Below the pieces are notes generated by a model. The model was not told where the DNA came from, did not search any database, and was given only the letters and a program-made list of their open reading frames with translations. The translations under genes were made by a program, and so were the position numbers. Below are positions 54-32,994 of a DNA stretch of 40,701 bases, one piece after another. This DNA is from a virus. The number at the start of each line of letters is the position of its first letter. The first letter of the stretch is position 1. The stretch is taken from IMG/VR virus record IMGVR_UViG_3300005515_000259, positions 1 through 40,701 of that record. One strand, written 5' to 3'.

Positions 54-1463
54 TCAAACAGGCAGCGCAATCAGGTCGTGACCTTCCGCGCCCACGATTC
101 GCGCGCGCGTGAACTCACCGACCTTGAGCGTCTTGCTGATCTTCTCTGGCGGCAGCAGACGAACCGTGCCATCGATCTCCGGCGCATCGGCATAGGTACG
201 CCCCACTCCGCCCTTCCGGCCCATGGCGGGCGCCGAGTCGACCAGCACCTGCATCGTCGAACCGATGCGCTTTTGCAGCTTGGCAATCGACACGGCTTCT
301 GCCACCTCCATGAAGCGCGCTCTGCGCGCCTCACGCTCAGGCTCCGGCAGCATGCCAGGAATGTCGTTGGCAGTTGCACCTTCGACGGGACTGTAGGCAA
401 AGCAACCGGCGCGATCGATTTCGGCCTCACGGATGAAATCGAGCAGATGCTCGAATTCCTGCTCCGTCTCACCAGGAAAGCCGGCAATGAAGGTGCTACG
501 AATCACGAGCTCGGGGCACACCTCGCGCCAACGTGCCAGACGCTCGAGGTTCTTCTCGCCACTGGCCGGGCGCTTCATACGCTTCAACACGTCGGGATGA
601 CTGTGTTGCAACGGCACGTCGAGGTAAGGCAGCACCAAACCGCTCGCCATGAGCGGAATGACTTCGTCGACGCTTGGATAGGGATACACATAGTGCAGGC
701 GAACCCATGCTCCATAGGGCTCGGCGATCTCACCCAGCGTCCGAACCAGTTCGAGCATGCGGGTCTTGACGGGCTTGCCATCCCAAAACCCGGTTCGGTA
801 CTTCACGTCGACACCGTAGGCCGAGGTGTCCTGACTGATCACGAGCAGCTCTTTCACCCCACCTTCGAACAGCGCCTTCGCCTCGCTCAGCACGTCGCCG
901 ACGGGCCGCGACACGAGGTCGCCGCGCATCGACGGAATGATGCAGAACGTACAACGGTGGTTGCAGCCTTCACTGATCTTCAGGTACGCATAGTGGCGCG
1001 GCGTCAGCTTGAGGCCGGCAACGCCAAAGGTGTTCGGCACCAGGTCGACAAACGGATCGTGCGGCTTGGGCAGATTGGCATGCACAGCATCCATGACCTC
1101 CTGCGTGGCATGCGGACCGGTCACGGCCAGCACACTCGGATGCATTTGACGCACCAGGTTGCCGCCCTGGTCGCCCGTCTTGGCACCCAGGCAGCCAGTG
1201 ACGATCACGCGACCGTTCTCGGCCAGCGCTTCGCCGATGGTGTCCAGGCTTTCCTTCACGGCATCGTCGATGAAGCCGCAGGTGTTGACGATCACCAGGT
1301 CGGCGCCTTCGAAGGTCTTGGCAGTTTGATAACCCTCTGCGCTCAGCTGGGTCAGGATCAATTCGGAATCTGTCAGGGCCTTGGGGCACCCAAGCGATAC
1401 CATTCCTATACTCGGCACGCGCGCCGCCTTCGGCGCTTCAACTGTCGTCATCGGGGTATCCAT
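54..1463 (-). CDS. rimO: Ribosomal protein S12 methylthiotransferase RimO, chimeric with a phage-supplied N-terminus
   Basis: RimO is a radical-SAM enzyme that methylthiolates an aspartate of ribosomal protein S12. The 469-residue protein has the UPF0004 domain with cysteines C26, C62 and C91, the radical-SAM motif CNHRCTFC at C167/C171/C174, and a C-terminal TRAM-like part. Residues 1-25 come from the prophage; the displaced native start lies at 40297-40386. The codons before C26 (TCG CTT GGG) differ from the native AGC CTG GGC but encode the same SLG. ATG at 1463 was chosen because it shares one base with the integrase start. A second ATG four codons in is possible, and the frame stays open to 1544. 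No strong Shine-Dalgarno is seen; TATAAA at 1481-1476 is a weak -10 candidate. Confidence 0.93.
1386..1388. other. attL crossover core (TGC on the rimO strand)
   Basis: Read on the minus strand, phage DNA ends at GTATCGCTTGGGTGC and host rimO continues with CCCAAGGCCCTG. At attR the same alignment reads GTGAGCCTGGGCTGC then GCGAGCGAT. The longest identity between the junctions is TGC, the codon of C26, flanked by mismatches on both sides. A short core of this kind is normal for serine integrases. The adjoining GG dinucleotide is the alternative crossover point. Confidence 0.8.
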
Positions 1464-3076
1464 TGTCAGGTCTTGTTTATAGCTACAGCCGGTTTTCCGA
1501 CCCGCGCCAGGCCGGTGGCCACAGCTTAGAGCGTCAGGCAGCATACGCAGCTCGCTGGGCTGCAGAGCATGGACTGAGGCTGGACGAATCGTTGACGCTA
1601 AGGGACGAGGGCCTCTCGGCCTACCACCAGAAGCACGTCAAATCCGGGGCGCTGGGCGTCTTTCTGGCCGCCGTCGAAAGCGGCAAAGTGCCGCCGGGTT
1701 CGGTGCTGGTCGTCGAGGGACTGGACCGCCTGTCACGCGCGGAGCCGATCCAGGCGCAGGCCCAGCTGGCGCAGATTGTAAATGCCGGCATCACGGTGGT
1801 GACCGCGAGCGACGGAAAGGCCTACAGCAGGGAACGGCTCAAAGCCAATCCCATGGACCTCGTGTACTCGCTGCTGGTGATGATTCGCGCCCACGAAGAG
1901 TCCGACACAAAAAGCAAGCGCGTCACGGCCAGCATCGTGCGGCATTGCCAGGGTTGGCTTGCCGGTACCTATCGCGGCCTGATTCGCAACGGCAAAGATC
2001 CCGTCTGGGTGCGTCTCGTCGACGGCAAGTGGGAGCTCATTCCCGAGCGCGTCGAGGCTGTGCTCGCCGGCGTCGACCTGTATAGACGTGGGTACAGCGC
2101 AACGCGCATCATTGCCGAACTGACCAGGCGCGAGCTGTCGCTGACCGGGCGCGGCCCCCAGGCGCTGCAGATCTACCGATTGATCCGACAACGCGCCCTC
2201 GTGGGGGAGAAAGAGCTCGACGTTGCTGGCGAGCAATTCCGCTTGCCGGGCTACTACCCAGCCCTGCTGACCGAGTCCGACTGGAGCGATCTGCAGACTC
2301 TCGCCGCCGGCCGCGGCCGCCGCGCGGCCAAGGGCGCCGTCCCACACATCGTCACCGGGATGAAGATCACGGTCTGCGGCTATTGCGGCCGCGCCCTGGT
2401 GGGTCAAAACATCGGCACGCGCGGACGCAGGCCGGATGGCGGCATTCACGATGGCCACCGCCGGCTCCACTGCACCAGCTACAGCCACGGGGGTTGTCCG
2501 GTTCCCGGCTCGTGCTCGGTTGCGCCGATCGAGCGCGCCCTCATGGCCTATTGCTCCGATATGTTGAATTTGCAGGCGCTCTACGGTGGCGATCGCGCCG
2601 AAGTGCCGCGTGCAAGGCTGGCCAGCGCTCGCGCTCGAGCTGCTGACCTGGCCAGCAAACTCGAACGGCTGACCGACGCGATGCTCGAGGCGGCCAACGA
2701 TGGCGCCACGCCGGCGACATTCACCAAGCGTGCGCGTGCATTGGAAGCCGAGCAGGTGGTCGCCATGGCCGACCTCGCCGCGGCAGAACGGGAGCTGGCT
2801 TCGGTGGCGCGTACCGATCTACAGGGCGTCGACGAGATGTGGGGCAAGCTCGCCGCCGGCGTTGAAGCTCAGGACGTGGATGCGCGCATCCAGGCCCGCC
2901 AACTGGTTGCCGATACTTTCGAACGGATCGTGGTCTATCGCCGCGGCGTGCGCCCGGAGGACACGCCGGCCGGTGCCATGGACCTCATGCTGCTTGCCAA
3001 GGGCGGCGCCGGCCGACTGCTTCGGATCGACAACCAGGGCGGATGGGTAGCAGCCGAGGCACTGGCGAACAGCTAG
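1463..3076 (+). CDS. int: Large serine recombinase (phage integrase)
   Basis: This 537-residue protein carries out attP x attB recombination. The N-terminal resolvase-type domain has the YSRFS motif with the likely catalytic Ser12 and the arginine motif GLDRLSR near residue 86. A recombinase domain follows, then a zinc ribbon with CGYCG near residue 304 and further cysteines to about 350, and a long helical C-terminal part. The start is TTG at 1463 with GGGG at 1453-1456 as ribosome-binding site; no ATG fits the fold better. The TTG shares base 1463 with the ATG of rimO on the other strand, so the two genes diverge from overlapping starts and each promoter must lie in the other's coding sequence. 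The gene is 75 bp from attL, the usual place for an integrase. Confidence 0.95.
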
Positions 3077-3083
3077 CGAAACA

Positions 3084-3099
3084 CTGTATGCTTTTACAG
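3084..3099. promoter_or_regulatory. LexA (SOS) box
   Basis: The sequence CTGTATGCTTTTACAG fits the CTGT-N8-ACAG LexA consensus exactly. With flanks it is a seven-base inverted repeat (CACTGTA and TACAGTG, 3082-3101). It overlaps TATGCT (3087-3092), a usable -10 element. It sits between the integrase stop and the GTG start of the next gene, so LexA binding would block that promoter. Seen directly; regulation is inferred from the family consensus. Confidence 0.8.
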
Positions 3100-3413
3100 T
3101 GCTCTGTGTCGTTTACGTTCTCCGCCGCAAAGGCGAAAGGCTACCCGTCGAGGAAGTCCGGGCGCGCCCGCACGTGGGCTGGCTGACGGTCGACCGCGAC
3201 GTGCGGGTGTACTACCCGCAGGAGGCAGCCCGGCTATTTCGCAGCGAGACAGACCAGGTCGACTTAATAGAGCCGATGGTGCACCCGCGGGCCAGGATTA
3301 AGAAGGGCTGCATTCTGCTACGCGGGTCAGAGGACGTCCGCAGCAGTGTCACGAACGCGCAAGCGTGGTGGTGTGTGCCAGGTCCACTGGACGACCGGAC
3401 CGAAGGCCGCTAA
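3099..3413 (+). CDS. Small protein under a LexA box; candidate induction factor
   Basis: The 104-residue protein is not recognised. It is basic at the N-terminus (YVLRRKGERLPVEEVR), then carries VGWLTVDRDVRVYYPQEAA and ends in a polar tail; no membrane segment is visible. The start is GTG at 3099, inside the LexA box; no upstream ATG is in frame and no Shine-Dalgarno can exist there. If the -10 is TATGCT at 3087-3092, the transcript would begin at or beside this GTG and be leaderless. SOS control and its place next to the integrase suggest a role in prophage induction, for example an antirepressor or a recombination directionality factor. This function is inference only. Confidence 0.65.
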   Translation: MLCVVYVLRRKGERLPVEEVRARPHVGWLTVDRDVRVYYPQEAARLFRSETDQVDLIEPMVHPRARIKKGCILLRGSEDVRSSVTNAQAWWCVPGPLDDRTEGR

Positions 3414-3447: not shown

Positions 3448-3690
3448 ATGACCGAAAACGAAGATGACGACCCAGTCGGTGAGGCGCCGCCTCCCCGCGA
3501 CCCCGTGGCAGTTTTCACGCGCCTGGCGGTGAAGCACGGTCTGATTCGCGACGGCGACAAGCTGGACCAGAACGTCGTGGACTTCGCGACAAGCATCGTC
3601 GACGTGTGCGCGTCGATCGGCGACGCCTACGGCGACAGCGAGGCTGGAGGCAACGCCGGCGAGCACATTCGAGCCGAACTCTACGGTTGA
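3448..3690 (+). CDS. Small acidic protein of unknown function
   Basis: The 80-residue protein begins with an acidic, proline-containing tail (MTENEDDDPVGEAPPPRDP) followed by a helical part (VAVFTRLAVKHGLIRDGDK and VVDFATSIVDVCASIGDAY). I do not recognise the family. It follows the LexA-controlled gene by 34 bp on the same strand and ends 14 bp before a strong two-way terminator, so the two genes may be co-transcribed. Small proteins beside serine integrases are sometimes directionality factors, but nothing in the sequence proves this. Confidence 0.55.
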   Translation: MTENEDDDPVGEAPPPRDPVAVFTRLAVKHGLIRDGDKLDQNVVDFATSIVDVCASIGDAYGDSEAGGNAGEHIRAELYG

Positions 3691-3698
3691 GCAGACGC

Positions 3699-3735
3699 AA
3701 AAAAGGCCCCCAGCGCCGAAGCGCTGGGGGCCTTT
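3699..3735. terminator. Bidirectional terminator between the integrase genes and the late region
   Basis: A perfect 12-bp stem (GGCCCCCAGCGC with its complement, loop CGAA) spans 3705-3732. Six A on its left give a T6 tract for leftward transcripts, and TTT follows on the right for rightward ones. It closes both the plus-strand integrase cluster and the whole leftward late transcript ending at Rz. Confidence 0.9.
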
Positions 3736-31719: not shown

Positions 31720-31962
31720 TCAGGCCTCGCCAGGCGTCAGCGTTGTGGGCGCGCCCGCGCCCGCCTCACCCTTTGCGCACTCGACGTGCGGCAGGAACAT
31801 CCCGACCGTCTCGACGCCAGGATTCTTGGTAGTGCCGTCTCTGATCTTCCAAAGCGTCCCGAACGGAACGCCCGAAAGACTAGCGAGGCGCTTCAAAGCT
31901 GCATGCCCAAGCGGCAGCAGCTCGCCTCTGATTGCTGCAACAGTAGGAAGGTCGGTGCTCAT
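31720..31962 (-). CDS. cro: Cro-like repressor
   Basis: The 80-residue protein has a helix-turn-helix core (LGHAALKRLASLSGVPFGTLWKIRDG) like small Cro/YdaS proteins, and an acidic tail. It is divergent from the repressor gene and driven by the leftward promoter whose -10 ends nine bases before the ATG. No Shine-Dalgarno fits in so short a leader, so the mRNA is probably leaderless or nearly so. It ends 31 bases before the tR1-like terminator. It would compete for the shared operators. Confidence 0.82.
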   Translation of the reverse strand: MSTDLPTVAAIRGELLPLGHAALKRLASLSGVPFGTLWKIRDGTTKNPGVETVGMFLPHVECAKGEAGAGAPTTLTPGEA

Positions 31963-31970
31963 GGGCGCTG

Positions 31971-31999
31971 AATCTACCGCATTCGGAATATTAAATCAA
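31971..31999 (-). promoter_or_regulatory. Leftward early promoter (PR-like) for cro
   Basis: Minus strand: -35 TTGATT (31999-31994), 17-bp spacer, -10 TAGATT (31976-31971). One operator fills the spacer and another adjoins the -35. The predicted start of transcription lies at or just before the cro ATG. Confidence 0.75.
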
Positions 32000-32035
32000 C
32001 CGCATTCGGAAGAGGCAAGCCACTACCGTATTCGG
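31977..32035. promoter_or_regulatory. Three operators between cro and the repressor
   Basis: Three copies of CCGNATTCGG occur: 31977-31986 and 32000-32009 (CCGCATTCGG) and 32026-32035 (CCGTATTCGG). The motif is a partial palindrome (CCG-n-AT-n-CGG). The first sits between -35 and -10 of the leftward promoter, the second adjoins its -35, and the third touches the ATG of the repressor, which suggests self-control. Confidence 0.82.
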
Positions 32036-32431
32036 ATGACGAAACAGGAAAGCAAGGCAGTGTTGTGGGCCAACGTTTCAACGCTGATGCGAGCGCAGTA
32101 CGGCAAGGAAAATCTGACCAGGATGGCCAAAGAGGCAGCGATCGGCCCGGCCACGGCGTCGCGAATCAAAGAGCAAAAGACAAGCGTCGGCTTGGATGTC
32201 GTGGACACCCTCGCGGCTCTTTTTAAAATCGAACCGTGGCAGCTGCTGGTGCCGCAGCTTGAGGCAGCTCAGCGAAAGACGCTGACCGCGTGGCCGTTCG
32301 CCGGGATAGATCCGGCCAGGGTCCGCGAGCTAAGCCCAGAAGCGATCGGCAAGATCGAGGCTTACATTGAGAGCAAGCTCGACGATCAAGCTTCAGAGGC
32401 GGCAGCCGCAGCAAACCGCAAGCGCGCATAG
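32036..32431 (+). CDS. CI-like repressor without a visible cleavage domain
   Basis: The 131-residue protein has an XRE-type helix-turn-helix (KENLTRMAKEAAIGPATASR and DVVDTLAALFKIEPWQLL, about residues 20-70) and a short helical C-terminus (LSPEAIGKIEAYIESKLDDQ). The S24 peptidase part of lambda-type repressors is absent, so RecA-stimulated self-cleavage is unlikely. ATG at 32036 directly follows operator three; the frame is open upstream, but those starts would run through the operators. No clear Shine-Dalgarno precedes it. It is divergent from cro and probably the lysogenic repressor. Confidence 0.83.
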   Translation: MTKQESKAVLWANVSTLMRAQYGKENLTRMAKEAAIGPATASRIKEQKTSVGLDVVDTLAALFKIEPWQLLVPQLEAAQRKTLTAWPFAGIDPARVRELSPEAIGKIEAYIESKLDDQASEAAAAANRKRA

Positions 32432-32955: not shown

Positions 32956-32994
32956 CCGTATTCGGTTGCATTGATATTCCGAATGCGGTAGATT
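32956..32994 (+). promoter_or_regulatory. Rightward early promoter (PL-like) with two operators
   Basis: Plus strand: operator CCGTATTCGG (32956-32965), -35 TTGCAT (32966-32971), 17-bp spacer containing operator CCGAATGCGG (32979-32988), and -10 TAGATT (32989-32994). The layout repeats the cro promoter exactly: 23 bp between operators, and the same sequence from the spacer through the -10. It drives the operon starting at 33023. Confidence 0.8.

Follow-up and report, generated by a model that had tools for sequence, protein, structure and literature searches.

The open reading frame at positions 3099–3413 of the analyzed DNA (hereafter "the window", all 40,701 nucleotides of IMG/VR virus record IMGVR_UViG_3300005515_000259) encodes, as judged by sequence profile, a member of a divergent and unnamed protein family, here termed family A, of which a LexA box is a trait. 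We consider it rather likely that the feature is a DNA-damage accessory cassette of a mobile element, which would be LexA-repressed, consist of two genes, be switched by the SOS response, and act most likely in the SRAP pathway. That it is an accessory DNA-damage cassette, rather than an antirepressor or a recombination directionality factor (RDF), appears quite likely. The features of this region are the following.

1463..3076, plus strand: large serine integrase (phrog_95, E = 5e-60; Resolvase and Recombinase domains).
3084..3099, no strand assigned: LexA (SOS) box CTGTATGCTTTTACAG, with 7-base arms if the flanks are included, overlapping the GTG start (sequence; the same box, identically placed, in loci L121 and L123).
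3099..3413, plus strand: family A gene, 104 amino acids, first gene of the putative SOS unit (leave-one-out profile E = 7.7e-19; alignment A3).
3448..3690, plus strand: family B gene, 80 amino acids, second gene of the putative SOS unit (71% identical to L110:5103–5336; homologues in other cassettes).
3705..3732, no strand assigned: likely bidirectional terminator, a 12-bp perfect inverted repeat with a CGAA loop and flanking A and T runs (sequence; partial tool match).

The window covers a prophage. Host rimO, recognized by homology, occupies the left end (positions 54 to ~1466, minus strand), and the right end resembles the end of phaR, an order of genes known from Burkholderiales. The element would thus be a Burkholderiales prophage integrated beside rimO, in which the unit is flanked on one side by the integrase and on the other by convergent right-arm genes. 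A rimO sequence directly adjoins the integrase in the window and in 18 loci of the same integrase family (e.g. L002, L007, L012, L020, L013, and L058), which suggests that, across several groups of hosts, the 5' end of rimO is the target of this serine integrase family.

The box at 3084–3099 has the arms CACTGTA-N6-TACAGTG and is the only perfect match to CTGT-N8-ACAG in the 40.7-kb window. The box ends on the first letter of the GTG at 3099, in agreement with the first-pass annotation, which had described a perfect box over the start of a 104-residue gene. Given the base composition of the window, chance alone would produce the bare core 0.49 times per window, whereas the expectation with 5-base arms (CTGTA-N6-TACAG) is 0.005, and the 7-base arms did not occur in 200 dinucleotide shuffles. 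In L121 and L123 both the box and the start are identical to those of the window. A further LexA-box-like sequence with one mismatch, TTGTTTATAGCTACAG, lies at 1473–1488 within the start of the integrase gene and is within chance expectation.

With the window protein as sole query, no relatives were obtained from viral, genome, or phage collections. Family A was reached through its neighborhood, by inspecting the regions downstream of the integrase in 80 relatives of the serine integrase, several of which carry a perfect LexA box there. In L002, L007, L010, L035, L040, L057, and L084 (the last reached by protein search and not through the integrase neighborhood), the box is followed by a 155–176 amino acid protein similar to that of the window, and in all of them the final base of the box doubles as the first base of a GTG. 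Many more distant members came from profile searches of genomes related to a Variovorax strain, and tblastn added members on plasmids and in phage AP1. When a profile of 21 relatives was built without the window sequence, the window ORF matched it with E = 7.7e-19 among 581 window ORFs (runner-up 0.049), and we therefore regard 3099–3413 as a real gene. With the same profile, 2000 shuffled versions of the window protein scored at most 7 bits, compared with 63 bits for the real one. The protein also carries the G-x-L, G-x-E, and Q-x-W-W-C motifs of the family profile, and a perfect LexA box overlies the start of its gene, as is characteristic of family A.

A perfect LexA box was present upstream of 31 of the 34 tabulated family A loci, some of which are closely related and hence do not represent independent events, although they include varied phage types, Thauera and Pandoraea plasmids, and chromosomal loci. 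The box begins exactly 15 nt before the start codon at 16 loci, 16–17 nt before it at two and 23–27 nt before it at seven, so that at 25 loci the distance does not exceed 27 nt. At six loci the box lies 221–513 nt upstream, and family A is, at least in some of these, a later gene of the unit; the remaining three loci have no box. A box matched by chance, in front of an ORF that is no gene, would be compatible with the expectation for the bare core and with the lack of a Shine-Dalgarno sequence before the GTG, but the leave-one-out homology and the identical box position in 15 other loci make this extremely improbable.

Members of family A occur in prophages, on plasmids both conjugative and otherwise, at chromosomal loci, and in isolated phages, namely AP1 and, as a distant case, Aval. 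The homologues on plasmids of Thauera and Pandoraea carry this LexA box as well, and four of them are divergent from SRAP. L022 and Aval encode A-like proteins that qualify only marginally for the family, with scores of 21.9 and 11.7 bits, respectively. No family A protein matched an entry in Pfam, NCBIfam, or PADLOC, and PHROGs gives no function. Thus the earlier statement that the family is not recognized is correct for the first three collections, while 11 of the 22 aligned relatives weakly match phrog_5560 (best E = 1.5e-6), an entry with neither a function nor a link to LexA. The window protein shows no match to this entry and no significant one elsewhere in PHROGs. Two named families were considered and rejected: ImuB-C/DUF6504 (PF20114), a companion of SRAP, is not matched in Pfam by any member of alignment A3, and DUF1654 (PF07867) has neither a Pfam match nor a meaningful profile-profile probability (0.5%).

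It is very probable that the unit is controlled by LexA, as had been proposed from the window alone, and LexA would bind at the box. At the loci with the box at −15, the hexamer at −12 to −7 reads TATGCT in the window and TATATT in many others, and would occupy the position of a −10 element if transcription begins at the GTG. None of the genes in this group, including that of the window, is preceded by a Shine-Dalgarno sequence. Taken together, the fixed distance of 15 nt between box and GTG, the −10-like hexamer, and the missing Shine-Dalgarno sequence suggest a leaderless transcript; no promoter at the unit passes a consensus scan. In the proposed mechanism, LexA bound to the box, which would also cover the −10 region and the start codon, keeps the unit silent. 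Following DNA damage, RecA would make LexA cleave itself, and a probably leaderless mRNA would be produced from the GTG. The family A product would then most likely serve host and element alike in the response to DNA damage, through the pathway to which SRAP belongs, and neither the phage repressor nor the integrase would be its main target.

The ORF at 3448–3690 was absent from the first-pass account of the unit. Homologues of it, referred to as family B, occur beside family A in L110, L140/L111, and L118. In L022 and in phage Aval the neighboring gene is an A-like one, and in L072 a homologue stands alone behind a LexA box. From this distribution, 3448–3690 is best described as a second recurrent SOS-cassette family that is predicted to be co-transcribed with family A, and the hairpin at 3705–3732 likely closes the two-gene unit as a bidirectional terminator.

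The commonest neighbor of family A is SRAP (PF02586). It is found directly downstream and co-directional in L002, L007, L040, L057, and L084 (supported by Pfam and six-frame searches), divergent across the LexA box on the plasmids L133, L137, L138, and L139 (by annotation), and convergent with family A in L140; L112, L116, L117, and L118 have neighbors that are SRAP-like by their N-terminal motif only. SRAP shields abasic sites in single-stranded DNA (PMC9436759) and occurs in SOS operons with small accessory genes, also in prophages (PMC3765255). The SRAP/YedK/HMCES cassettes described there resemble the present loci in that small LexA-controlled genes adjoin SRAP on mobile elements, but family A is neither SRAP nor ImuB-C, and the window cassette contains no SRAP. 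Two further small proteins recur in this neighborhood. A gene of 62–69 amino acids (MDDEIPTDIWIYYCA...), which has no Pfam match, is divergent from family A and shares its box in L002, L007, L010, L035, L040, L057, L084, L114, and L115, and a protein with the pattern SQTDFF...YKVSPG...RWTVT.LK.G..VYSG.GPVE lies 3' of family A in L114 and L130 and 3' of family B in L072.

An accessory DNA-damage role is thus favored by the boxes at most of the relatives, the spread of the family over phages, plasmids, and chromosomal loci, the recurrent SRAP neighbor, the presence of family B in the same cassettes, and the precedent of SRAP in SOS operons (PMC3765255). Against it stand the lack of SRAP in the window, the absence of a significant SRAP enrichment among the records searched (6 of 12 phages with family A and 10 of 41 others; p = 0.15), and the lack of a consensus promoter and of a convincing fold match that would point to a biochemical activity. 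Since a shared genomic neighborhood is no proof of shared function, we put forward action of family A in the SRAP pathway only tentatively, as a possibility suggested by its neighbors. A more specific and speculative version, to which we assign a low probability, is that in Burkholderiales and their relatives family A provides mobile elements with an SOS effector, made from leaderless LexA-gated mRNAs, which together with SRAP and family B would protect single-stranded phage or plasmid DNA from damage or from host defenses that create abasic sites.

The main alternative to SRAP-pathway action is modulation of the SOS response itself, with a DinI- or PsiB-like family A product that would act on either LexA or RecA filaments. 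The occurrence of family A in SOS cassettes of mobile elements, both plasmids and phages, would fit this role, and dinI homologues hold the corresponding position in the Gifsy operons (PMC3121763). However, family A has no Pfam match to such protein families and no convincing fold match, and we regard SOS modulation as rather unlikely.

The structure prediction proposed by the first-pass annotation was uninformative for the window protein (pLDDT 48, based on 9 sequences), but succeeded for the relative in L140, which is ~31% identical to it (pLDDT 85, pTM 0.77). The predicted L140 fold consists of one strand, one helix, and five strands, and on the basis of this model the family A product would be a small beta-rich protein. 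Foldseek searches with the L140 model returned nothing convincing (best E 0.38 in PDB and 0.11 in BFVD). The top rows of VIA-align were PH/RanBD-like with a best Z of 6.2 (3.6 Å over 80 residues), a level of about 6 that the tool's own note calls common. No helix-turn-helix was predicted and no catalytic motif was recognized in the family A protein.

The suggestion that the gene encodes an antirepressor originated from the prophage repressor, which was said to have 131 residues, no visible S24 peptidase domain, and hence presumably no ability to cleave itself. The features around the repressor gene are the following.

32036..32431, plus strand: prophage repressor, 131 amino acids, helix-turn-helix only, no S24 peptidase (Pfam and six-frame scan).
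31720..31962, minus strand: presumed Cro-like ORF, 80 amino acids, divergent (ORF list; no Pfam match).
31977..32035, no strand assigned: three operator-like CCGNATTCGG repeats at 31977, 32000, and 32026, the last abutting the repressor ATG (sequence).
32956..32988, no strand assigned: two further operator-like repeats at 32956 and 32979, upstream of the rightward operon (sequence).

The description of the repressor was confirmed: its one recognizable domain is a Cro/CI-type helix-turn-helix (HTH_26, E = 3e-4, just under its cutoff). As Peptidase_S24 had no match in any of the six frames across the window, a peptidase part hidden by a frameshift, which had been named as an observation that would overturn the claim, can also be excluded. 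The operator-like repeat CCGTATTCGG at 32026–32038 directly abuts the repressor ATG, and the repressor mRNA may therefore be leaderless too.

LexA-controlled antirepressors are used by the Gifsy phages (GftA/GfoA), 186 (Tum), and N15 (AntC), and those of Gifsy lie outside the immunity region (PMC3121763). By analogy, the family A product would, after SOS induction, bind the S24-less repressor and free the lytic promoters. The window shares with these systems a small LexA-controlled gene outside the immunity region and a repressor that lacks S24 and would be unable to cleave itself, and S24 was absent from the window phage and from the first eight family A phages examined. The impression that phages with family A never carry S24 repressors (0 of 8) nevertheless dissolved with more records: an S24 protein is encoded in phage AP1, the phage contig G967, and the Pseudomonas contig G047, all with family A, and also in Aval, a distant member with family B and an arm-type integrase. 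S24 was found in 2 of 12 records with family A, to which AP1 and Aval are to be added, vs 18 of 41 without it, a comparison of records related to each other that is not significant (p = 0.10), so that the link between S24-less repressors and family A is a lean and no statistically solid association. In addition, a repressor detectably like that of the window was found in just one other family A phage, and there as a weak match. Unlike the known antirepressors, family A has no match in Pfam or NCBIfam to any named antirepressor family, and it is not confined to phages with non-self-cleaving repressors, as it occurs alongside S24 repressors in AP1 and G967, distantly in Aval, and on plasmids, which have no need to inactivate a prophage repressor. 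The evidence thus does not bear out the antirepressor role, which we consider unlikely for family A.

A variant of this explanation assigns the antirepressor function to family B and a general SOS function to family A, following the Gifsy operons, in which a dinI homologue precedes the antirepressor (PMC3121763). Both genes lie in the same operon in the window, the B-bearing phages of the window, L022, and L140 lack S24, and the LexA operon of L140 adjoins a short S24-less repressor; yet phage Aval combines family B with an S24 repressor, and Variovorax plasmids carry family B too. We consider this variant quite unlikely. The L140 repressor (129 amino acids, L140:2264–2653, plus strand) adjoins the LexA-controlled B-A operon, and its WPF-containing C-terminus resembles, by eye, that of the window repressor.

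The other role initially suggested, that of an RDF for the adjacent serine integrase which would be SOS-made so that excision follows induction, has a precedent in SprB, the RDF of the SPbeta serine integrase SprA, which has a stress-induced promoter (PMC8270828). Family A lies directly behind the integrase in the window and near it in six related phages (L002, L007, L010, L035, L040, and L057), which would suit a stress-made excision helper in a serine-integrase prophage. Unlike SprB, however, family A shows no evidence of integrase dependence. It was matched in only 8 of the 49 integrase-family records searched, the window included, and in one of them, the Pseudomonas contig G047, it lies far from the integrase. 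Other members have no such integrase next to them: those on plasmids, those at the L114 and L121 loci, and that of AP1, whose integrase lies at a distance. Moreover, LexA-boxed genes of another kind occupy the same slot behind the integrase in Pseudomonas relatives, such as DUF1654 in L050, L066, L067, L070, L071, L078, and L081, which is likewise a small gene next to the same integrase family and is unrelated to family A in sequence. An RDF role is consequently not supported and appears very unlikely. The distribution over plasmids, S24 phages, and elements with distant integrases argues against a dedicated antirepressor or RDF across the family, while for the one copy in the window phage both roles are left as rivals.

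Family A probably serves as an accessory of the damage response in general rather than as the device that wakes this prophage. The feature is of some interest for its protein family, which is unnamed and bears a regulatory signature of unusual strictness, and not for the mechanism proposed at first. LexA-gated prophage accessory genes were already known, while family A has no name, Pfam entry, or function, despite being switched alike in phages, on conjugative plasmids, and at chromosomal loci. The constant overlap between the LexA box and the start codon offers a simple rule for finding further members. Its distribution also warns that a LexA-gated gene beside an S24-less repressor is not always an antirepressor, and the route by which the window prophage is induced, if it responds to SOS at all, can now be tested gene by gene.
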